From the IMG/VR virus record IMGVR_UViG_3300030450_002371, positions 1 to 32,856 of that record: a stretch of 32,856 nucleotides of DNA, one strand, 5' to 3'. Below the pieces are notes generated by a model. It saw nothing but the letters and a program-made list of their open reading frames with translations, was not told the DNA's origin and did no database searches. The position numbers and the translations under genes are program-made. Of this stretch, positions 8,680 to 32,856 are shown piece after piece. Position 1 is the first letter of the stretch. The number at the start of each line of letters is the position of its first letter. This stretch comes from a virus.

Positions 8680-8782
8680 ACTTACCTTCCCAATTTTTTG
8701 GCGATAACGCATTCACCAAACCAATCATCCATAAGATTGACGCTAATCCAATCATTACCCATCCTATATCTATCATAATCAT
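8666..8782 (-). CDS. Tiny single-pass membrane protein (38 aa)
   Basis: A 38-codon frame beginning MIMIDIGWVMIGLASILW with one hydrophobic segment spanning about residues 5-25, then a charged tail (SPKNWEGKYEKN). Its ATG overlaps the nuclease stop as ATGA (8779-8782), and its 3' end contains the Shine-Dalgarno site and start of the next gene. The two tight junctions and the clean membrane segment argue for a real gene. Function unknown; too small for a classical holin. Confidence 0.5.
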   Translation of the reverse strand: MIMIDIGWVMIGLASILWMIGLVNALSPKNWEGKYEKN

Positions 8783-9495
8783 TTCTTTTTTATACCGCCA
8801 CATATATCAAAGTAATCACAGTATTTAGCGTTGCACTCCCATTCGTATACAGGGCTTGTTCCCAGCCCGAGGGCTGGAGGTTCAGGTTGTTCCTGAGTTA
8901 CTTCTACTGTTGCAGTCCAATAGTCATGCGCTCTTTCCATCATAGACATAGGTACGTCTACTTCGCGCATATCTGAATTGTCTTTGTTGTAATATAAAAG
9001 TTTCATACCATTTAACTTCCCGTACTCTTGCTCATACCATATACCATATGTAGCAAGTTGTAAAGAATAGTTTTCTGGTACGTCTGGATGAAATTTCCTA
9101 CCGAATAAAGTACGCCACTTCCAAGAGTTGCAAGTCTTTATATCAATTAGTATATCATCTGATACTATCGCTAAGTCTATAAAGCCTCTGACGTTGTATT
9201 CTTCTATAAATAATTCTTTTTCTATAAATATAGGCAAGGCATTACTATCAGCATACCAACGCATAGCATCTTGTATGTCTGTATGTATTAAGTCGCCTAT
9301 TCTAAATATACGAAGTGTTTTATCTTCTACTTCTTTTCCCTGCACTTGTTGGACAGAGCCGTAGTAGTGCTTCCGCATACACAGCCCTGCCCGCGAAGAG
9401 TGAAAGAAAGATTCCATCCCTTTATAGCGAGATGCATTCTTCTTATCGCGTAGACTACGAAGATATTGTTGATATATCTCTTTTACGTCTGACAT
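8779..9495 (-). CDS. Cas4/RecB-like PD-(D/E)XK nuclease with Fe-S cysteines
   Basis: Exonuclease-type protein expected to resect DNA ends for the annealing protein. The RecB-family motifs are in order: GDLIH (67-71), a conserved Asp in GFID (D107), LIDIKT with D118-x-K120, and QLATY (146-150). C39 plus C221, C226 and C232 give the four-cysteine set that holds a 4Fe-4S cluster in Cas4 and AddB-type nucleases. Its length (238 aa) is close to Cas4 proteins. No CRISPR array or other cas gene is present, so it is a phage recombination nuclease and not part of a CRISPR system. The upstream gene overlaps its start by 41 bp. Confidence 0.85.
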   Translation of the reverse strand: MSDVKEIYQQYLRSLRDKKNASRYKGMESFFHSSRAGLCMRKHYYGSVQQVQGKEVEDKTLRIFRIGDLIHTDIQDAMRWYADSNALPIFIEKELFIEEYNVRGFIDLAIVSDDILIDIKTCNSWKWRTLFGRKFHPDVPENYSLQLATYGIWYEQEYGKLNGMKLLYYNKDNSDMREVDVPMSMMERAHDYWTATVEVTQEQPEPPALGLGTSPVYEWECNAKYCDYFDICGGIKKK

Positions 9496-9905: not shown

Positions 9906-10152
9906 TTTACTTTTCCTCTCTTTTTCTTTTATTACTTTTCTTTTTCTTTAATAAGTATTTATAGTATTATATATTATATATATATAGTAAAGCGTAGTAT
10001 ATATATAATTTATATACTACGCATATTACTATACATTACTCTACTATTATTTATTATATATAATAGTAAAAGCAAGGGTCATCCTTAATCAGTAGTTGTT
10101 TTCCACGAGGCGTTGAATATTCTCTTTAGTTTCCTCTTGTTTTCCAACTGAC
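9906..10152. other. AT-rich gap with two perfect palindromes
   Basis: No gene in these 247 bases. A pyrimidine-rich tract (about 9905-9955) is followed by almost pure A/T sequence. GCGTAGTATATA (9992-10003) and TATATACTACGC (10011-10022) form a perfect 12-bp stem with a 7-base loop. TACTATTAT (10042-10050) and ATAATAGTA (10060-10068) form a 9-bp stem. Related words recur in the divergent control region at 17297-17392. It could be a replication origin, a regulator-binding region or a promoter/terminator zone; the sequence does not decide. Confidence 0.5.
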
Positions 10153-10962
10153 TTAATAGAAGCGAACTTTCTTTGCATCAGATAACTGATAGTTGTATAT
10201 TCCTTCTAGTAAACGGATGTAATCAGTAACAGTTGTTAGCTTTTTGATAGTGTGCTTTTTCTGTTCTAACTTTGTCAACATACGCTTATGGTCGTATTCC
10301 TCATGTTCAAAAACACGCTTAAAGGCATTTGCAAAACGATTGTATGTTGCAAACTTTACATATTTTTGTACATCTAGCAGTGCATCTGCTATTTTCTCAG
10401 CGTAAAGAAGGTCTACAATTTGCAAATCTCCTGTACGCAGAGTTTTCATTGATTGATTACCAAACAATAAGAGTCCAGTAGAAGGCGACAGACTATAACC
10501 TCTGTCCTTACTAATAAACTCCTCAAATGTTCGATATTCGACATAACCCATATCAGCGTACATATGGATAAAATTGCTAGGTTGCCATTTCTTTTGACTT
10601 TCGTTGATTCTCGCAACAGTGTCAAGATTGACTTTACCTATAACAATATTGTACCATATATGTACATCTGCTCTTTTAGCGGCGAAAAAACGATGTTGCC
10701 CATCAAGTATACGCATTTGCTCATCAACCATAATAGGACAATACTTTAAAAAGTTTTCTCCGTTTTTGATTTTCTCAGCAAGCGTATTGATATGGCTATC
10801 GCTTATATCGCGATTTCCTGATATTAGACTAAACTTAGCGTACTGCTTAGTGCCAAAAGTCATGTGAGTTTCCAGAGTTTTATCTGAAAACTCGCTTTTG
10901 CCATTAGTGGCGAGCATATTAAGCAATCTATCATCATCAGGAGTAAGTGTATTTTTTTTCAT
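10153..10962 (-). CDS. ParB/sulfiredoxin-fold protein (269 aa)
   Basis: The ParB-like domain covers about residues 40-120. NRDISDSHINTLAEKIKNGE is followed by PIMVD-(x)5-ILDGQHRFFAAK, where GQHR is the signature of the nucleotide-binding site. Residues 150-269 are helical and basic. In phages such single-domain proteins act as CTP/ATP-dependent DNA binders, nucleases or transcription factors; a partition role is unlikely without a ParA, and none is seen. AAGGAG precedes the ATG. Its leader carries a 7-bp hairpin and a tRNA-like element. It flanks the AT-palindrome gap, to which it might bind (inference). Confidence 0.75.
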   Translation of the reverse strand: MKKNTLTPDDDRLLNMLATNGKSEFSDKTLETHMTFGTKQYAKFSLISGNRDISDSHINTLAEKIKNGENFLKYCPIMVDEQMRILDGQHRFFAAKRADVHIWYNIVIGKVNLDTVARINESQKKWQPSNFIHMYADMGYVEYRTFEEFISKDRGYSLSPSTGLLLFGNQSMKTLRTGDLQIVDLLYAEKIADALLDVQKYVKFATYNRFANAFKRVFEHEEYDHKRMLTKLEQKKHTIKKLTTVTDYIRLLEGIYNYQLSDAKKVRFY

Positions 10963-11092: not shown

Positions 11093-11992
11093 CTATGCTT
11101 CAGCGATAAATTCACCCGGTTTAGGCATTAAACCTCTATAGTTATCTTCATCGCCATCTTTATGTGCACGCCATCTCTTGAAATCTTCAAGCATAACAGC
11201 ACGCGTTTCTGGTTCTTCCATTATCTTATCAAGTATTTCAATAAAATCGTCTGACGATTTAATATTCATACTATCAACCAATTCCTTCATCTTTTCGCTA
11301 GCTTCGAATCCTTCATCGCTATACTGTTCAACATCTAAAGGAATAAGAGTTGATATATTAGTTCCATCTTCTGTTGTAGCGTCATAACCGCAATCAGTAA
11401 GAAGTTTTGCTAAACCTTTACAGTGTAGCTCTTCAACGCTTTTAAACATTTCAGCGGTTGCTTCCTTAACAGTTTTCGTAGGAATTAATTTTTGCATTTC
11501 TTTCAGCTTAGTAGCATCTTCATCTGCAAAACAATAGCTAATAGTAACAGAACCTAAACCCTTATCGCCTTTTTTATCAATGATTTTCTCTTTTCTCTTT
11601 TTACTGAGTAAATGAAAAACCAAAGAAGGTGGCGGAAGTTGATATTCTTTATCAGCTTCACCAAACCTTGTAGCGACTATTTTAGTTTGTTGTTTATCCC
11701 AATTATCAACTAACATTTCATGAAAATGTAACTGAGTTATAGCAGTAGCCATAGAAACTGGCGTAACATCAAAAAAATCAGTAAATTCACTGAATTTTTC
11801 CATATTAGCTTTAAGTTTCTTAAAGAATCCTTGAGGCGATTTACTTTTACTCATTGAATCTTGACATTTACTTATCAAAATTTTGAATAACGCCCTAGAT
11901 TTCTTTTTTTCTACTAAACTATCGACTTGCACATTTATAGCGGCTCTATTCTGCCCTGTTAAGCTGATAAAGTAGTCTTGTTGTTTAGACAT
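11093..11992 (-). CDS. Hypothetical protein (299 aa), companion of the AAA+/VWA genes
   Basis: An acidic, mostly helical soluble protein. It has an N-terminal third with Lys-rich helices (SKCQDSMSKSKSPQGFFKKL), a central PPPSLVFHLLSKKRKEKI, and a C-terminal acidic region (EQYSDEGFEASEKMKELVDS, then EEPETRAVMLEDFKRWR). No signal peptide, membrane span or catalytic motif is visible, and I do not recognise a family. AAAGGAGCG precedes the ATG. It follows the VWA gene by 21 bp in the same direction, so it is a candidate third component or substrate of that machine. Confidence 0.7.
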   Translation of the reverse strand: MSKQQDYFISLTGQNRAAINVQVDSLVEKKKSRALFKILISKCQDSMSKSKSPQGFFKKLKANMEKFSEFTDFFDVTPVSMATAITQLHFHEMLVDNWDKQQTKIVATRFGEADKEYQLPPPSLVFHLLSKKRKEKIIDKKGDKGLGSVTISYCFADEDATKLKEMQKLIPTKTVKEATAEMFKSVEELHCKGLAKLLTDCGYDATTEDGTNISTLIPLDVEQYSDEGFEASEKMKELVDSMNIKSSDDFIEILDKIMEEPETRAVMLEDFKRWRAHKDGDEDNYRGLMPKPGEFIAEA

Positions 11993-12013
11993 ATTACGCT
12001 CCTTTTTTTGTTA

Positions 12014-13174
12014 TTATTTAAGTTTTTTGATTACCTCCACAAGTTTATCCGGTGTTTTTACATTATAATATACAGTATTACCGAAATCTTTAAGTTTTTT
12101 ATCCATATCGCGCATACTATATCTTCTTTCATCAACCTCATGGCGACACATAAAAATTATATTATTTGTATTTAAATTCTTTTCTAAAATAGGAAGACAA
12201 TCTGTATCGCTAAATAATAATACAGTTCTATTTTTTAAATATTTCCAATCATATGCTCGGTTTTCTATATCATCAGAGTTCCAAATAGGCACAAAATCTT
12301 TTGTACGCTTACAATATTTGTGTACAATCCTGCCATTAGGTGCATCATATATCTCTATATCGTCATATTTTGCTGCTAATTGAGCTATAAGACCATAAAA
12401 ACTAGCAACGCTCTTACAAGATGGAGATGTATCTAACATAAGTATGATACGCTCTTTAATTCTATCTTTTTTACATTTATTTATAGACTGTCTTGTAACT
12501 ACGCGTTCTGCTAATAGGTGTTCATCCCAAAATTCATCGCCCTGTATGTCTGCACCTGTGTTATCTTCAGCTAGTTTAGCTATTAAATTAGCAAATTCAG
12601 TACCATAACGCCTATTTCTTGACTTAAAGTATGTAATACCTAGCGACTCCGCACTATGTTCGTTATGTTTGAATGTTTGATTGCCACTTTGTTTGTTTTC
12701 TTTATTGTCTGATTCTTCATCGCTATAAATACTCATACCAAGCTGACTCTCAAAATCATATAGATTTTCTATGCGTTGATTCATTGCATCTATCTGTTGT
12801 TGTATTCGCTCTTGTTCATCTGTATCTTTGTTTCTTTTTTCTTTATACGCATCATTTAATCTTTTACTTAAATTTGTTTCCGCATTATATATTTCTACTC
12901 CATCGTATTTTTGCGTCTTTCCTTTTTTATAAACAAGTTTATTGTTTACATATAATTCTTTACCGGCATCATATATTTTATTTGATTTACTATTTAATTT
13001 AGAGTTAGGTACTCTTTTAATTTTAAAATTCTTTTTTTGTATATCTTCATCACTAAGGCGAGAGGTCTGACTTACGCCAGACCCCTCTTCACTACCGACA
13101 ACCACTCTAGGAGCGCGTTTGTCATTGTTTTCATTTTTCCACTGGCGCCAGTCTCTATTAATCTTTAGACTCAT
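12014..13174 (-). CDS. VWA-domain protein (MIDAS), partner of the AAA+ ATPase
   Basis: Residues 1-160 are low-complexity and highly charged, with a coiled-coil segment (about 115-145). A VWA-like domain fills about 240-386. It starts RIILMLDTSPSCKS, so the metal-ion-dependent adhesion site DxSxS is D248, S250 and S252, and continues with a second acidic loop FSDTDC (321-326). In CobT, NorD and MoxR-linked VWA proteins such domains use a bound metal to hold targets remodelled by a neighbouring AAA+ ATPase. The gene overlaps the ATPase gene by 17 bp and has AAAGGA upstream, supporting co-production. The target is unknown. Confidence 0.75.
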   Translation of the reverse strand: MSLKINRDWRQWKNENNDKRAPRVVVGSEEGSGVSQTSRLSDEDIQKKNFKIKRVPNSKLNSKSNKIYDAGKELYVNNKLVYKKGKTQKYDGVEIYNAETNLSKRLNDAYKEKRNKDTDEQERIQQQIDAMNQRIENLYDFESQLGMSIYSDEESDNKENKQSGNQTFKHNEHSAESLGITYFKSRNRRYGTEFANLIAKLAEDNTGADIQGDEFWDEHLLAERVVTRQSINKCKKDRIKERIILMLDTSPSCKSVASFYGLIAQLAAKYDDIEIYDAPNGRIVHKYCKRTKDFVPIWNSDDIENRAYDWKYLKNRTVLLFSDTDCLPILEKNLNTNNIIFMCRHEVDERRYSMRDMDKKLKDFGNTVYYNVKTPDKLVEVIKKLK

Positions 13175-15254
13175 AAGTATCCTTTAATGTATCTATTAAC
13201 GCTGTTGTCGATTTTATTCTGTTTGATAGTTGTACGTTACTTGAGGCAGTATCACTGTTCCAAAAGTTACGCCATACTATCATATGGTCAGACACAAACA
13301 AACAATGTACATCATTTTTGCATAAAGCATCGAGGTTATCACTAGATACCTTCCAACCGCTTGATTGCATATGTTTCATAGCTTCTTTTGTATCTGCTTT
13401 AAAACACCTATATAATGGTATGTAGTCAGCTAGTAATAAAGCAAACTTAAATACATGAATATCAGGTGTCGCATCTATTTGAACATAAACAGTATCATTG
13501 CCATCATAATCATTATTAGTGCCAAGACTTGTTAGTCTTACTTGTATGCCATTCGCTTTTATTACCTTTACATCCGGAATAGTTTGATATTGAAACTTAG
13601 CTTTCCTAGTGTATAAATCATCTATTCTAGCAGATATATCAACATCGCTGTATTTTTGTGGAGGTGAAGGCTTTAGCATCTGACAATAACTGTTTGTGCG
13701 CTTTAGATTCTTGAGCATTAGATTGCCTATGCTATCTTGAGGTCTTGTTCCCTTTAGATAACAAGGTACTATATCGCTAATATTCAAAAGTGGATGAGTA
13801 TGGATAGATTTATGTCTATTTGTATCCGGTAATTGCAGTAAGTTATGCTTACTATTCATTTGCATAGAAACATACAAACGCTCAATATGCTTAACATTTA
13901 CAATTACTTCTGTTTCGCCATCTTTCCATCGTACATCTACTTTATCTTTTTCAACCTTCTTTTGTCCACGCTCAACATAAGTTTCACGAGCAATTATTTC
14001 CTCAGCGGAATATTTGTTCTTTGTGTACTTACCACGAACTAATCTACGCATTTCATCAAGTGATATATCATCGGTAGTGAATACCATCTCACCATTTGCT
14101 TTTGTACCATTAAATCGAGTCATAAATTCGTGTGCGTGTTCTAAAGGAACAGGTTTTTTAGCAATAATGCAATCATTACGAACTTCCGCCCAATCAATAA
14201 ACTGTGGTTCTGTTGGCATCTCGCTGACACTATCAGTTAATACTGAATAAGCAGCATCATCACGTTCAAAAACGCCATATAAGTCTTCATCATTAGAAAT
14301 ACCTTGTACAGTATCAAAATCACTGTCAAAGTTTCTTAAATCAGACATTTTAGGCATTTCTACGCCATTAGAACTCTTCTTATCTTCACCAAATGCTTTA
14401 ATATATGCTTCCGGTGTTAATACAGTTTTCTGTTCTTGCTTATAATGTTCCCATTCATTTTTCTCAGCTTCGCTAAGTAATGTATGGTTCTCTTCTGTTT
14501 TTGTTATGTACTGATAAACTAGCGTATCCCAATCAGCACCTTTACCAAGAAATGAAATAGCATCTAATAATTGACGCAGTTCTTGTATAGTTGCAGGTTT
14601 GGGCATATCCGCCATCAGACATTTCTGATACAGACTTATAGCATTTGGGCGAAACGGACTATTCTTATGTGTTTTCTTCAGCGCCTTATTAACTAATGTT
14701 GGTGTTAATGGCATTAGGTCTATTTTAGGAAACCTACGCAGTAACGCTTCAGAGAAATCACGTTCATCGTTCGCAGTAAAGAATATCATCATATTATCTA
14801 AATTAGCCTTAACGTCATCTCCGTTAGGCACTGATAAGCGACCATATTGCAGAAAGTCTAGAAAGAAACCATCTGCGCTTGGTTTTGTCTTATCCCATTC
14901 ATCTAATACAACAACAACCTTCTCGCTTTGAGATGCTTTTGACGCTTCGAATATTTTACCATATTCTATTTTGACACCCGAAGTAGTATCTTCGCTAGGC
15001 CAAATACGCATCAATAGGTCATCTTCGCGAGTACCTGCTGAACATTGATGGAAGAATAGCTTACGCTCAAGAATCTCAGACAATACCTGTGGAAGTAGAC
15101 TCTTTCCAGTCCCTGCCGGACCGTAAAGAAACGCACCACCAACAGGCTTTGATTGAATTGCAGACGCTATATTTGAAGCAAAAGAGGTATTACAAATGTA
15201 ATCCTTTTCGTTCAATGCGGTATGCAACCCTAAGACTGAGATATTATCTTGCAT
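13158..15254 (-). CDS. MoxR/CobS-like AAA+ ATPase with a long C-terminal extension
   Basis: A ring-forming ATPase expected to remodel protein complexes. Walker A is GPAGTGKS at 45-52, Walker B VVVVLDEWD at 113-121, sensor 1 FFTAND at 158-163, and the arginine-finger pair LLRRF is at about 171-175. After the AAA+ module (residues 1 to about 290) comes a 400-residue region with no motif I recognise, much larger than in bacterial MoxR (about 330 aa in all). The start at 15254 is chosen because AAAAGGAAAAGCG lies just upstream; a longer TTG-initiated frame to 15293 has no site. Its pair is the VWA gene directly downstream. Confidence 0.82.
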   Translation of the reverse strand: MQDNISVLGLHTALNEKDYICNTSFASNIASAIQSKPVGGAFLYGPAGTGKSLLPQVLSEILERKLFFHQCSAGTREDDLLMRIWPSEDTTSGVKIEYGKIFEASKASQSEKVVVVLDEWDKTKPSADGFFLDFLQYGRLSVPNGDDVKANLDNMMIFFTANDERDFSEALLRRFPKIDLMPLTPTLVNKALKKTHKNSPFRPNAISLYQKCLMADMPKPATIQELRQLLDAISFLGKGADWDTLVYQYITKTEENHTLLSEAEKNEWEHYKQEQKTVLTPEAYIKAFGEDKKSSNGVEMPKMSDLRNFDSDFDTVQGISNDEDLYGVFERDDAAYSVLTDSVSEMPTEPQFIDWAEVRNDCIIAKKPVPLEHAHEFMTRFNGTKANGEMVFTTDDISLDEMRRLVRGKYTKNKYSAEEIIARETYVERGQKKVEKDKVDVRWKDGETEVIVNVKHIERLYVSMQMNSKHNLLQLPDTNRHKSIHTHPLLNISDIVPCYLKGTRPQDSIGNLMLKNLKRTNSYCQMLKPSPPQKYSDVDISARIDDLYTRKAKFQYQTIPDVKVIKANGIQVRLTSLGTNNDYDGNDTVYVQIDATPDIHVFKFALLLADYIPLYRCFKADTKEAMKHMQSSGWKVSSDNLDALCKNDVHCLFVSDHMIVWRNFWNSDTASSNVQLSNRIKSTTALIDTLKDTYESKD

Positions 15255-16461: not shown

Positions 16462-16494
16462 AAAAAAAGCCTATCCAAAGATATGAATAGGCTT
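16462..16494 (-). terminator. Rho-independent terminator of the 142-aa gene
   Basis: On the - strand AAGCCTAT pairs with ATAGGCTT (16487-16494 with 16467-16474), a perfect 8-bp stem with a 12-base loop, followed directly by seven Ts (16462-16468). It lies 24 bp after the stop of the 142-aa gene. It is the clearest terminator in the window. Genes further left must depend on read-through or on a promoter I did not identify in 16407-16461. Confidence 0.88.
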
Positions 16495-16947: not shown

Positions 16948-16988
16948 ATTATATCCTTTAGTTAGTTAGTTGTTTAATTGACAGTAGT

Positions 16989-17018
16989 AATATAGTGTAG
17001 TGGATTGATTAGTGTCAA
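16989..17018 (-). promoter_or_regulatory. Sigma70-like promoter of the leftward early genes
   Basis: On the - strand TTGACA (17013-17018) is a perfect -35 box and TATATT (16989-16994) a good -10 box, 18 bases apart. The predicted transcript starts about 35 bases before the 142-aa gene. A host-type sigma70 RNA polymerase would therefore start early transcription. Confidence 0.75.
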
Positions 17019-17447
17019 GATTTAAATCAAACAATAAAACAAGTAAACAATTATAATTTATTAGTGTCTTGCTTTGCTTTCGTTGTATTAATTACAAGTA
17101 ATTTTAACCCATTGACGTATAATATATATTATGTATAATTAATTTTCAACTAAATTCCCTACAACTCGAAAAACCAAAGACCGGGGTCGGGGGCACATAA
17201 AAGACCCACACCCAAAGTAACCCTATTTTTGTAGTTTACCTTAAAACAGCGCTATAAAACCTCAAAATATTTGTGAAAAATTTTTTTCAAGTTTTGTATA
17301 GTATATATAGTATAGTAATAGTAATAGAAATAACTATTATATGCGTATAGTATATATTATATATATAAGTGCTATATATTATATATATATTACAAAGCCT
17401 AAAAATTGCTAATTTGACATTTCAATTATTAATGCTTAACTTCCGCT
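17019..17447. other. Divergent control region: GC-rich island and AT palindromes
   Basis: No gene in this 429-bp stretch between the leftward and rightward units. It holds the + promoter candidate, a small GC-rich island (GACCGGGGTCGGGGGCAC at 17179-17196) that stands out in an AT-rich background, and a pairing tGAAAAA/TTTTTC near 17274-17288. It also holds A/T palindromes at 17297-17392, including TAATAGT (17316-17322) with ACTATTA (17333-17339) and GCGTATAGTATATA from 17343. Origin, packaging site and regulator-binding region are all possible readings. Confidence 0.5.
17112..17139 (+). promoter_or_regulatory. Candidate sigma70-like promoter for the rightward genes
   Basis: TTGACG (17112-17117) and TATAAT (17134-17139) are 16 bases apart on the + strand. 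It would give a leader of about 300 bases before the first late gene at 17448, so either the leader is long and functional or a closer promoter is used. TTGACA at 17414-17419 is a second, weaker candidate because its -10 box is poor. Confidence 0.5.
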
Positions 17448-27048: not shown

Positions 27049-27495
27049 ATGGCAACATTAAAAGTTAAAATACAAGAGGATATAATTCTTGGCAATCAAG
27101 ATTATGGCTCTAAAAGAATATTAGAAATAAGTAGTATAGATGAAATTAATAAAAGAATTCTTACTTGTCCAGCTAGTCAAACTACAACTATTGCAGTTTT
27201 TAATTCTAATGCATACGGAGCAGCTGGAGCTATTGATATTGAAGATTCAAAATATATTAGAGTTACAAATTTAGATGGTTCTAATTCAATTGAATTAGCT
27301 ATCGTTGGAGCAGCTACTCTTTATCAAGTAAAATTAGGAGCTGGTGAAAGTCATGTTCTTGGAAGCGCAGATGACTTAATGTTGTCAGAAGCAGATACAA
27401 GTCCAAGTTTTGGGACTATGGCTGATTTAGGAAGTATACAGGTAAATCCCGGTGGTAACGCAGTAAGCGTTGAATTATTTATAGCGAGTGCATAA
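27049..27495 (+). CDS. Structural protein (148 aa), probably head/neck
   Basis: All-beta protein (TLKVKIQEDIILGNQDYGSK, then IEDSKYIRVTNLDGSNSIEL and GSADDLMLSEADTSPSFGTM) with no signal peptide. The pattern fits a small virion protein. AGGGG is upstream; TAATG links it to the large coiled-coil gene. No family recognised. Confidence 0.6.
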   Translation: MATLKVKIQEDIILGNQDYGSKRILEISSIDEINKRILTCPASQTTTIAVFNSNAYGAAGAIDIEDSKYIRVTNLDGSNSIELAIVGAATLYQVKLGAGESHVLGSADDLMLSEADTSPSFGTMADLGSIQVNPGGNAVSVELFIASA

Positions 27496-30400
27496 TGGCT
27501 ACTTTTGAAGCACAAGTAGAAGGTTTAACAAGTCTTTCAATAGATGGAAGTAGCTCTCCTACACAAACTGAATTAACTCAGTTTCTTACAGATGGAGCTA
27601 AAGAAATAATAAATGTATTACCAGAGAATCTTTTAAACCTGTGCGCATCTTCTGTTAGTTTTACTTCTGGTAGTGCTAGTACTTTAAATACTGGAAAAAT
27701 ATCAAATGTAATGAGAAGCGATGGTGATATTACTCAACCTTGTCGTGATGTTCCAGCTATGTTTAAAGGTAGATATTCAGACCCTGATGATATGAATTAT
27801 GCTACAGTTACAGACCCTATTTATTATATTGAAAATAACTCATTAGATGTATTACCTGCTGGAGGTTCAGTAACATATTCTGAAGTTCAATATCCATCAG
27901 TAGCTTATGGAGATTCTGCTATAGCAGTATTTCCTGATGAAGCTGAGTATTTAGTACCAATATATGCTTCTATAAAATCATTACAAAATGTTTTAGGTAG
28001 TAAATCATCTAATGCTGATATTACTACTGCTCTTACTGCTATTAATACTGAAATGGATGAAACTCAGGCAGTTTGCGATAAAATAGACGCTGATTTAGTT
28101 TTAGCAAAAGCAGAGGTTGTATTAGCTAAAGCCGAAGCGGCTGAACTTGCTACACAAACTGATAATGGTGGTGATTTTGAAACTGCTTGCGATGCAATGG
28201 CAACAGAGTTAGCTAAGGTTGATAATATTATCATAGAAGCAAGCACTGAGTTTGATAAAGTAGATAATGTAATTGTTGAGGGTAGTGTAGAATTTGATAA
28301 ATCTAGCGCGCTGTTAGACTTAGGTGAAACAGACTCAGAGGGGGCTGTTAACACAGCGGCTGGTAAGATAATAACAGAAATGGACGAAACGCAAGCTGTA
28401 TGTGATAAGATAGATGCTGATTTAGTTCTTGCTAAAGCTGAGATTGTTTTAGCTAAAGCAGAGGCTGCAGAACTTGCAACTCAGACTGATAATAGTAGTG
28501 ATGTTGCAACGGCTCTTACAGCTATAAATACAGAATTAGATAAAGTTGATGAAGTTATATTGTTAGCTCATGAAGAATTTGATGAAGTAGCGGCTGAAGT
28601 AACCTCTACAGCTACATCTCCTATAACAGCAGCTAGAGGTGTTGTTCCAAGTGCTTTGTCAATAAATGATTTAACTGTTAGCGTATCAGCTCCTTCTGCT
28701 CCTACTTTAGCTACAATTGAATATCCTGAAGCTAGTAATGCTGACGCTAGTGTTACCGCTGTTTCAACTGCATCTGCATCTGCTCCAAGCATTATTGATG
28801 TTAGTAGCAATGCACCAACTTATACAAAACCAAGTTTAACGTCTAGAGTTGCATTTAAAGCTTTTTATGCAGATACATCAAATGCTAATCCTTTTGGTGA
28901 TTCTGACCCGGGAGTATTTTCTTTAAGTACACCACCAGCTTTAGGTACTGCAAGCTTTAGTACGCCTGCAATAGCTACTGTAGCGGTTGCAAGTTTTGGT
29001 ACAGCTCCAGCTTTTACTTCTCCTAAAGTAGGGGGAGCAACAGAAGAATTAACTGCTTCTATAACAGATGGAACAATAGGAACTGATGCAGATTTTCAAG
29101 ATTTTAGTGATTGGTGGGAAGTATTGGGACATTTAATAGAAGATGAAGAAGATACAGAGTTAGCTGGATTACAAATTAATAAAATTAATTCATATATAGC
29201 AGCATATCAACAAGCCATGCAAAATCAATTACATATATTTAATGATGCAAATGTAGAGTATCAAGCAGCTATTCAAGAAAAAATTAAAGAAGCGGACCTT
29301 GCATATCAAGAATCTCAACAAGAAGCTCAATTATTGTTGCAAAAAGAATATCAAGAATATCAATCTAAAGTATCTGAATACCAAGCTGAGGTAAATACAG
29401 ATGTTCAGGTTTATTCTCAAAAACTTGAAAGATATAAAACTGAGCTTAGTACAGTTTATCAAGCTTGGGCAAAAACAGAAACTGACAGTTTTCAACAGTA
29501 TCAACTTGATATACAGAATGAATTAAATGAATTCAATAAAGATAATGCTAGATATCAAATGGAATTTAAAGAAGCCGCTGATAAAACTCAAATGGATTTA
29601 CAAGTAGCTGTTGCAAATGCAAATAATTTAGCTCAGGAATATAGACAGGAAGCTCAACAATCGACTGAGATGGATAAATTTAATAAGGCTCAAGACCAAG
29701 CATTAGCATTAACTAATGCAGCTAAAGAAATGGAAGATATAGTACTTAATAATAAATCTTTAATGGAAAAGTTTACAGGAGAATTAAATAAGTATACTGC
29801 TCAAGTAAACGATGAGGTTCAGGAATATCAAGCTAATTTACAGCAAAAAGTACAAGAATTTGATTCTAGTATTAAACTTCAAGGTACTTATTTTAAAGAA
29901 GCTGAAGCTAGGGTAAATGCAGGTGATGCATTTTTAAAACAAGCTCAGGCAACTATAGCCCAAGCTCAAGGTTATGCTGCTGAGGTTTCTGCTAGAGCTA
30001 GTTTTAGCGGAGCTAAATCGCAGGCTATACAAGGTTATATTAGTACAGCTCAAAGTTATGTAGCTTCTGCTCAGGGATTTGGTAATGAAGTTCAAGCTAA
30101 GATTGCTATAGCAAATGGATATATTGCTGAAATAACTATTAGGTTACAACAAGCAGAATCAAAAAGACAAGAATCTCAATCTAGGATAGCGGCAGGAGGA
30201 GCTTATTTACAAGAGGCTCAAGCAATAATAGCTCAAGGTAGTGCTTATATAGCAGAGGCTCAAGCTTATGTTTCACAGGCTCAAGGATATGCGGCAGAAG
30301 TGAATGCTAGAGCAGGTTTTAGTTCTGCTAAGTCTCAAGCAATTCAAGGATATGTAAATACGGCTCAAAGTTATGTGGCTACAGCTCAAGGATTTGCAAA

Positions 30401-30575
30401 TGAAATTCAGGCTAAAATTGGTATAGCTCAAGGATATAGTAACGAAGTTCAAGCAAGATTAGCTGTAGATACTTCTCATTATGGATGGATAGAAAAACAA
30501 CAAGCTAAATTACAAGCTGATTATGATAAAGGATTACAATTACTCATTGGTCAAGGAGCTCAGAATGTCAGTTAG
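27495..30575 (+). CDS. Very long coiled-coil structural protein with internal repeats (1026 aa)
   Basis: N-terminal part (1-150) resembles a connector or adaptor: MATFEAQVEGLTSLSIDGSS, then TQFLTDGAKEIINVLPE. A duplicated Ala-rich helical unit follows (about 186-225 and 295-334). Next comes a Ser/Thr/Pro/Ala-rich linker (about 380-530), then a long Gln/Glu/Tyr coiled coil (about 565-800). A second duplicated unit lies at 826-885 and 931-990. The long helical shaft with repeats suits a tail rod, internal core or neck-whisker protein. The TAATG start couples it to the previous gene. The role is inference. Confidence 0.6.
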   Translation: MATFEAQVEGLTSLSIDGSSSPTQTELTQFLTDGAKEIINVLPENLLNLCASSVSFTSGSASTLNTGKISNVMRSDGDITQPCRDVPAMFKGRYSDPDDMNYATVTDPIYYIENNSLDVLPAGGSVTYSEVQYPSVAYGDSAIAVFPDEAEYLVPIYASIKSLQNVLGSKSSNADITTALTAINTEMDETQAVCDKIDADLVLAKAEVVLAKAEAAELATQTDNGGDFETACDAMATELAKVDNIIIEASTEFDKVDNVIVEGSVEFDKSSALLDLGETDSEGAVNTAAGKIITEMDETQAVCDKIDADLVLAKAEIVLAKAEAAELATQTDNSSDVATALTAINTELDKVDEVILLAHEEFDEVAAEVTSTATSPITAARGVVPSALSINDLTVSVSAPSAPTLATIEYPEASNADASVTAVSTASASAPSIIDVSSNAPTYTKPSLTSRVAFKAFYADTSNANPFGDSDPGVFSLSTPPALGTASFSTPAIATVAVASFGTAPAFTSPKVGGATEELTASITDGTIGTDADFQDFSDWWEVLGHLIEDEEDTELAGLQINKINSYIAAYQQAMQNQLHIFNDANVEYQAAIQEKIKEADLAYQESQQEAQLLLQKEYQEYQSKVSEYQAEVNTDVQVYSQKLERYKTELSTVYQAWAKTETDSFQQYQLDIQNELNEFNKDNARYQMEFKEAADKTQMDLQVAVANANNLAQEYRQEAQQSTEMDKFNKAQDQALALTNAAKEMEDIVLNNKSLMEKFTGELNKYTAQVNDEVQEYQANLQQKVQEFDSSIKLQGTYFKEAEARVNAGDAFLKQAQATIAQAQGYAAEVSARASFSGAKSQAIQGYISTAQSYVASAQGFGNEVQAKIAIANGYIAEITIRLQQAESKRQESQSRIAAGGAYLQEAQAIIAQGSAYIAEAQAYVSQAQGYAAEVNARAGFSSAKSQAIQGYVNTAQSYVATAQGFANEIQAKIGIAQGYSNEVQARLAVDTSHYGWIEKQQAKLQADYDKGLQLLIGQGAQNVS
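28047..28490 (+). repeat. Tandem repeat pair A inside the coiled-coil gene
   Basis: Two copies of about 39 codons start at 28047 and 28374, 327 bp (109 codons) apart. Both encode EMDETQAVCDKIDADLVLAK, then KAEAAELATQTDN. The DNA differs at many third positions, so the duplication is old and kept at protein level. Confidence 0.8.
29961..30470 (+). repeat. Tandem repeat pair B inside the coiled-coil gene
   Basis: Two copies of about 57 codons start at 29970 and 30285, 315 bp (105 codons) apart. Both read GYAAEV-x-ARA-x-FS, then AKSQAIQGY, then TAQSYVA-x-AQGF and QAKI. Synonymous differences show purifying selection on the repeated helix unit. Confidence 0.8.
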
Positions 30576-31758: not shown

Positions 31759-32856
31759 ATGGCTTTAGGTAATTTAATTACCACTACAGCCGCCAGTATA
31801 TCTTCTGGTGGTACAATAAATGGGAATCTAACAATAGAAGGTGATTTAACCGTCAATGGGGATGGTTCAGGAAATTACGATGAAATAGTTAATGGTAATA
31901 TGACCATTAGCTCTACCAATAAGTTGGTATTAGGTGGAGATGGTAGTGATACATATTTACAAGAATCAGGTGCAGATGTATTAGATATATATGTTGGTGG
32001 TGCCAACATGATTAAACTTACTGAATCAACAACTGATACAATGACAGTTACAGGAGCTTTAACAATCGGTTCTGATGGTTCAGGACATGATGTAACATTT
32101 TATAGTGATACAGCTGGAGATTCATTTGTTTGGGATTCATCCGCAGAAAAATTAACAATCACAGGAACAGACGGACAAACAGCTTTAGATATAGCTGATG
32201 GTAATTTAGTCGTTGCAGATAATATAGATTTAGAAGGTGATATTGATGTAAATGGTACTGCCAATCTTGATAATACTGATATTGACGGAACATTAACTGT
32301 TGCTGGTGGAATATCAACATTTTCAAGAGCTGATTCAAGTCCTTCTGGAACAGACCCTCATGGAATTTTCAATGATGCTGTTTTCGGTTCAACTGATACT
32401 GCCAATACAGGTATTACAATTTTTGGTTCTGGTCAAACATCTTTAGCTTTTGGAGATGCTGGTGATTCTGATATAGGTCAAATAAGATATCAACACGCTT
32501 CTGATAAATTAGAGTTTTTGTCTAATGCAGATGTAAGAATGGTTATTGACTCTTCTGGTAATGTAGGCATAGGCACAACAAGTCCAGATGAACAACTCGA
32601 AATTTCTAAAGAAGGTACGAGTGATAATGCTGTAGCGATGATAAAAGGCGGAGAAGGTTCAGGTGCTTTATTGCATATGTGGGCTGATGAAGGTGATGAT
32701 AATGCAGATAAATGGTATTTAAATGCTAATGAAGGTGGACATTTTTCTATTGCAACTTATTCAACAGGTTCATGGGTAACGCATTTGAAACTTGACTCCA
32801 ACTCTCGCATCAGCCTATCCAATAATGATAGTGGTACATCAAATACAGTATTTGGA
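31759..32856 (+). CDS. Tail fibre protein, N-terminal part (3' end outside window)
   Basis: Open frame of 366 codons to the right edge with no stop, preceded by AGGAGG. Begins MALGNLITTTAASISSGGTI and continues with repeating short beta segments (NGNLTIEGDLTVNGDGSGN, and GTDGQTALDIADGNL) typical of beta-helical or trimeric fibre shafts. The motif SSGNVGIGTTSPDEQLEIS near codons 266-284 is a recognisable signature of phage fibres and similar adhesins. The receptor-binding tip and any C-terminal chaperone are beyond the edge. Confidence 0.78.
   Translation, partial: MALGNLITTTAASISSGGTINGNLTIEGDLTVNGDGSGNYDEIVNGNMTISSTNKLVLGGDGSDTYLQESGADVLDIYVGGANMIKLTESTTDTMTVTGALTIGSDGSGHDVTFYSDTAGDSFVWDSSAEKLTITGTDGQTALDIADGNLVVADNIDLEGDIDVNGTANLDNTDIDGTLTVAGGISTFSRADSSPSGTDPHGIFNDAVFGSTDTANTGITIFGSGQTSLAFGDAGDSDIGQIRYQHASDKLEFLSNADVRMVIDSSGNVGIGTTSPDEQLEISKEGTSDNAVAMIKGGEGSGALLHMWADEGDDNADKWYLNANEGGHFSIATYSTGSWVTHLKLDSNSRISLSNNDSGTSNTVFG

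Follow-up and report, generated by a model that had tools for sequence, protein, structure and literature searches.

The 32,856-nucleotide stretch analysed here (hereafter the window, positions 1 to 32,856 of the 33,969-base IMG/VR virus record IMGVR_UViG_3300030450_002371) carries three consecutive genes, encoding an AAA+ ATPase, a VWA-like protein and a third protein, which we propose to form a core, probably early-expressed remodelling machine of an uncultured marine phage family. The third protein would act as a tail-bearing adaptor or client and the target would most likely be a replication complex, a reading to which we assign a probability of about 0.45. An earlier note on this DNA had recognized a MoxR-type ATPase with a VWA partner and a linked third gene, a description with which the nearest structural relatives of the ATPase, NorQ and CbbQ, agree; its coordinates for the trio [Table 1], the 17-bp overlap of the ATPase and VWA genes (13158-13174) and the 21-bp gap between the VWA and third genes (11993-12013) were all correct on recount. 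The order AAA-VWA-third gene is kept in about 25 related marine phage contigs with Walker A and B, sensor 1, arginine finger and DxSxS motifs intact.

The ATPase matches Pfam AAA_5 (E 4e-17). Its Walker A and Walker B motifs and sensor 1 Asn, found complete in the earlier note, and its arginine finger (an arginine pair) are intact in 23 AAA homologues, across which G45, G48, G50, K51, D118, E119, N162, R165, R173, R174 and E225 are invariant. An AlphaFold2 (AF2) model with a mean predicted local distance difference test score (pLDDT) of 76 shows a MoxR-like module extending to about residue 265, with predicted hairpins (82-86/94-98 and 139-141/147-149) located where the MoxR helix-2 insert and pre-sensor 1 hairpin lie. 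A Foldseek comparison with the PDB placed NorQ chains at the top (E 1e-11, TM (target) about 0.7) and CbbQ next, over the first 260 residues or so, and in a search of a viral fold library the AAA module alone was matched, over about the same length. Judged by this predicted fold, the protein is probably a MoxR-type motor closest to NorQ and CbbQ. The "about 400 extra residues" noted earlier behind the module comprise a predicted disordered linker (residues ~270-325) followed by a predicted folded alpha/beta region (~326-698). PDB sequence searches with the ATPase, its C-terminal part, the VWA protein and the third protein returned nothing convincing past Walker A, and PADLOC gave generic AAA matches to the ATPase and nothing more specific. 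A MadB ATPase assignment by NCBIfam (41.6 bits against a cut-off of 475) was judged to be a generic AAA match as well; a literature search on that family turned up no paper.

The comparison with CobS/CobT made in the earlier note proved not to be a close one, the match of the ATPase to phrog_249 (E 3e-7) being limited to residues 28-126, and identity with the cobaltochelatase was rejected. Together with NorQ as the nearest fold, this weak match is what would favor an auxiliary metabolic pair acting as a metal chelatase or in metalloprotein maturation, after the manner of CobS/CobT or strictly of NorQ/NorD. We consider this very improbable, given that the likeness is confined to the AAA module, that the third gene is phage-specific and that a CobN, NorB/C or Rubisco-like target gene is missing from the annotated window genes.

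In the second protein, the D248-x-S250-x-S252 motif reported earlier as part of a metal ion-dependent adhesion site (MIDAS) is invariant in 21 VWA homologues, with no loss of DxSxS in any of these relatives, as are D323 and D325, which follow a predicted strand and correspond to the distal Asp of MIDAS. The third MIDAS element, a central Thr, is not conserved among these proteins, where P279-N280 is invariant instead, and our claim is therefore limited to a VWA-like protein whose MIDAS is a variant one. C234 and C253, the latter directly following the MIDAS motif, are invariant in all VWA homologues and may have a disulphide or metal role. The domain is modelled by AF2 with fair confidence (pLDDT mostly 80-90), and a hairpin at residues 285-296 of the model is a candidate pore finger; the VWA_CoxE profile scores below threshold in some members (0.003-0.016). 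An N-terminal WR peptide, most commonly [VIL]xRxWR plus an aromatic residue and followed by a variable linker, is present in 20 of the 21 phage proteins. Bacterial VWA homologues begin with a closely similar [VIL]xRxW(R) peptide (PRIERPWRK, PKVERIWRP, TVERRWRP).

Directly downstream of the VWA gene in about 20 loci lies a third gene encoding a protein of 165-310 residues, which the earlier note had found unrecognizable; indeed, neither this protein nor the VWA protein has a significant match in Pfam (none above cut-off for the VWA protein), PHROGs, NCBIfam or PADLOC. The third proteins form subfamilies that phmmer links only partly. Profile comparison linked subfamily A with B and D (E ~1e-4) and the subfamily of the window with that of loci L042/L111 (E 5e-4), and joined these two groups to each other at an E-value of 0.004, reversed-sequence controls giving 0.06-0.6. 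From these pairwise values a single superfamily appears likely, if unproven. Otherwise divergent, the proteins end approximately in [AG][EDKQ][AS] (AEA, GEA, YEA, AES, AKS, GQS, GES). The [EDKQ][AS] tail is found in every main-family third gene versus 7 of 255 other open reading frames of at least 100 residues in the loci (8 of 256 in the raw count, from which one, the third gene of L046, was removed), and is also present in three independent, later-fetched sequences (L109, L111 and L112). The short open reading frame of L048/L015, unrelated to the other third genes, ends in ADA, and nothing comparable to a third gene is present in L035 and L056, which do not belong to the main family.

The relatives were found with a degenerate DNA pattern for DEWDKTxP, which brought up over 40 IMG/VR loci encoding an AAA homologue; an ATIQExRQ pattern scan added a single relative and a protein-derived scan using the VWA protein alone added none. 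No relative of the AAA protein (window, L035 and L048 queries), the VWA protein or the third protein was found by tblastn among the 50,697 phage records of INPHARED. Adjacency in related phages, suggested earlier as a check, was the rule: a VWA homologue immediately follows the AAA gene in 24/24 phage loci reaching past it, and four further contigs agree. Where sequence reaches, synteny across the family runs g161-AAA-VWA-third-ParB-Cas4-exo-g166-DnaB-g110-methylase, the ParB-like gene being present only in some members, with MPE, TerS, TerL and portal genes upstream and divergently oriented and the trio coming closely behind the divergent, promoter-like region; this holds for members whose TerL, portal and MPE proteins share just 54-78% identity with those of the window. 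The left half of the window consists mostly of leftward genes, among them those for the DNA methylase, DnaB helicase, exonuclease, Cas4-like nuclease and ParB-like protein together with the trio, and its right half is a rightward structural block (small and large terminase, portal and major head protein), the two parting from ~16.95-17.45 kb. As the trio occupies a conserved replication block across loci, it belongs to the core gene set of these phages. A tree of AAA modules places 22 phage sequences in one group (99/97) with the window clade beside L042/L055, long branches elsewhere leaving the deeper joins unsure.

Divergence within the trio is uneven. When the window is set against L004, a close relative, identity is 91-100% for the DnaB, Cas4-like, ParB-like, terminase, portal and head proteins and at least 84% for most remaining sizeable genes, whereas it is 62% for the VWA protein and 52% for the third, values matched among the larger genes by the tail-fibre region alone (52-68%). 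Identity is low in every pair of a three-way comparison of close relatives (VWA 62-64%, third protein 50-67%), so that recombination as the sole cause is not needed, while the ATPase retains 94-97% identity in its module and 59-86% in the segments behind it. This pattern indicates rapid change in the parts that would read a target, against a constant ATPase core. We note that the divergent tail-fibre-region genes (27049-30572 and 31759-32856) adjoin tail genes that are 97-100% identical.

Such rapid change, in the fastest-evolving genes outside the tail-fibre region, and the location of the trio near the start of the leftward block might also be expected of a host takeover or counter-defence machine that takes apart a complex of the host, be it RNA polymerase, the nucleoid or a defence assembly, with the VWA linker and the third protein as its variable target readers. 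We regard this as somewhat unlikely, because the trio is core and keeps a fixed place throughout the family, where counter-defence genes would be patchy, and because PADLOC and Pfam give no specific link. The earlier note had left the choice between remodelling of a host or replication complex and a role in defence or anti-defence; since the trio is a core part of a replication operon, the former is likelier than an accessory defence gene, in keeping with the generic PADLOC matches. Alternatively, the proteins may serve as a virion or tail assembly chaperone, a role reported for ATV p618/p892 and proposed for MoxR-vWA pairs of jumbo phages (PMC7824862, PMC7911831), and one to which the similar divergence rate of the tail-fibre-region genes would lend itself. 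We consider it improbable, since in every locus long enough the trio lies in the leftward replication block and not in the rightward structural block.

The MoxR-VWA pairs NorQD and CbbQO remodel their client through the VWA partner, which in NorQD contacts the ring both through a finger in the pore and through its C-terminus (PMC13036017). Given this mode of action, the simplest reading of the phage trio is that the same kind of motor works on a client, or through an adaptor, specific to the phage. The AAA+ protein would assemble into a MoxR-type ring into which the VWA protein would dock as NorD does into NorQ, its RxWRxW peptide possibly making a second contact with the ring. The third protein would be the phage-specific adaptor or client, with the VWA/MIDAS or the AAA ring perhaps gripping its conserved C-terminal tail, and ATP hydrolysis would cause the target complex to be twisted or pulled apart. 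Position and neighbours suggest that this target is a replication complex, acted upon in helicase loading or in takeover of the host replisome: the operon position, the presence of DnaB with no loader of the DnaC/IstB type and the lack of DNA polymerases of families A and C, the last two seen in all five 47-51 kb records with the module, together point to replication. That the machine specifically loads or exchanges the phage DnaB, or captures the polymerase of the host, under the guidance of a fast-evolving adaptor read via its C-terminal tail, is an unlikely refinement.

Several points weigh against a replication-directed machine with a tail-bearing adaptor. The target is proposed from position and neighbours and not from direct evidence. 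Many DnaB-bearing phages lack a recognizable loader, which makes loader absence a weak argument, and the search for family B polymerases (DNA_pol_B_2) lacked a positive control, so that their absence is not established. The tail rule was spotted post hoc and its confirming set is small. The folded C-terminal region of the ATPase, of about 370 residues, found no match in structure or sequence searches, and for the VWA protein the fold evidence is weak, NorD matching at E 0.01 and standing below CD38 in the ranking. Finally, rapid divergence would also be compatible with contacts to tail proteins or host defences.

Compared with NorQ/NorD and CbbQ/CbbO, the phage proteins share the fold of the AAA+ module, an adjacent DxSxS-bearing VWA partner and the linker-rich nature of the latter (PMC13036017), but differ in having the ATPase C-terminal region, the RxWRxW peptide and the third gene, in lacking a Nor or Rubisco target and in a VWA sequence unrecognized by Pfam. 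Adjacent, virus-encoded AAA+ and VWA genes are known from ATV (p618/p892), group 2.2 jumbo phages and the haloviruses Hardycor1/HVTV-1 (PMC7824862, PMC7911831); the vWA protein of the jumbo phages bears a metallopeptidase, unlike that described here, and the third gene and replication-operon setting are new to the present family. Bacterial vWA-MoxR-VMAP ternary conflict systems likewise combine MoxR, vWA and a conserved third component in strict order and display a PsWRx-aromatic motif, although on the MoxR N-terminus (PMC7159879). Unlike the trio, they have effectors fused to vWA. Their order is VMAP-MoxR-vWA rather than AAA-VWA-third, and membership of the trio was rejected on this difference and on the lack of a Pfam match above cut-off for its small third protein, without a separate VMAP-C comparison. 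Phage N4 gp24/gp25 are also adjacent ATPase-like and DTSGS-bearing proteins; as close relatives they were dismissed, the hhalign probabilities being 0.5 and 5.4 per cent with only the Walker A and DxSxS stretches aligned. Because viral MoxR-vWA pairs and bacterial ternary systems were already known, the kind of machine is not new and "undescribed", as the earlier note had put it, applies in part: what is new, as far as our searches show, is the phage family itself, along with the C-terminal region of the ATPase, the terminal peptides and the third component.

Table 1. Positions of the trio and of neighbouring features in the window, with the layout of the VWA protein
Feature	Position	Strand	Remarks
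AAA+ gene	13158-15254	-	698 aa counted from ATG; alternative in-frame TTG start 39 bp upstream of ATG
VWA gene	12014-13174	-	386 aa
VWA protein layout			N-terminal RxWRxW peptide; low-confidence linker; VWA domain ~182-386 (AF2 and 21-member alignment)
Third gene	11093-11992	-	299 aa; C-terminus ...GEFIAEA
ParB-like gene	10153-10962	-	Next in conserved block; phrog_12305 2e-24; 91% identity in close relatives
Terminator-like 12-pair stem with T tail	9992-10022	-	Directly downstream of ParB-like gene
Cas4-like/PD-DEXK nuclease	8782-9495		phrog_1706 5e-23; 94% identity in close relatives; found across phage family
Divergent intergenic region	16948-17447	none	Contains the two best promoter-like sites
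Best promoter-like site, leftward	17018-16989	-	11/12 matches
Best promoter-like site, rightward	17112-17139	+	11/12 matches

The hairpin downstream of the ParB-like gene likely marks a transcript end; a second of terminator-like type is found at 16467-16494. Promoter-like sites are, in total, no more numerous in the window than expected by chance, and neither a tRNA nor an Rfam RNA was found in the window.

A scan of genome contigs revealed bacterial AAA homologues in Salinibacter altiplanensis, other Bacteroidota metagenome-assembled genomes (MAGs), an Aquificales MAG and a 'Deltaproteobacteria' MAG, among others, followed by a VWA homologue in 6 of 8 loci. Taken with the 24 phage loci and the four further contigs, this excludes chance as the source of the pairing. 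None of the genes after the bacterial VWA in the loci read resembles the phage third genes. The Salinibacter copy and that of one Bacteroidetes MAG are flanked by genes for FAD oxidoreductases, a short-chain dehydrogenase, adenylosuccinate lyase and an ammonium transporter, metabolic surroundings that make them look chromosomal. The AAA protein of a 109-kb virus record (L035/L060, G001) clusters with the Salinibacter/Bacteroidota chromosomal copies (100/100), suggestive of host-virus exchange. A more distant phage (L061, G002, 79.6 kb) encodes a 460-residue AAA protein without most of the C-terminal region, followed by a VWA gene and a methylase-like gene.

Few of the widespread MoxR-VWA pairs have a known client. 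A core phage MoxR-VWA pair with a small, tail-bearing third protein would offer a compact system for VWA client choice and for action on replication and, if the proposed target is correct, would to our knowledge be the first MoxR-VWA system directed at a replisome. The uncharacterized cellular AAA-VWA pair of Salinibacter and other Bacteroidota would gain a lead as well.

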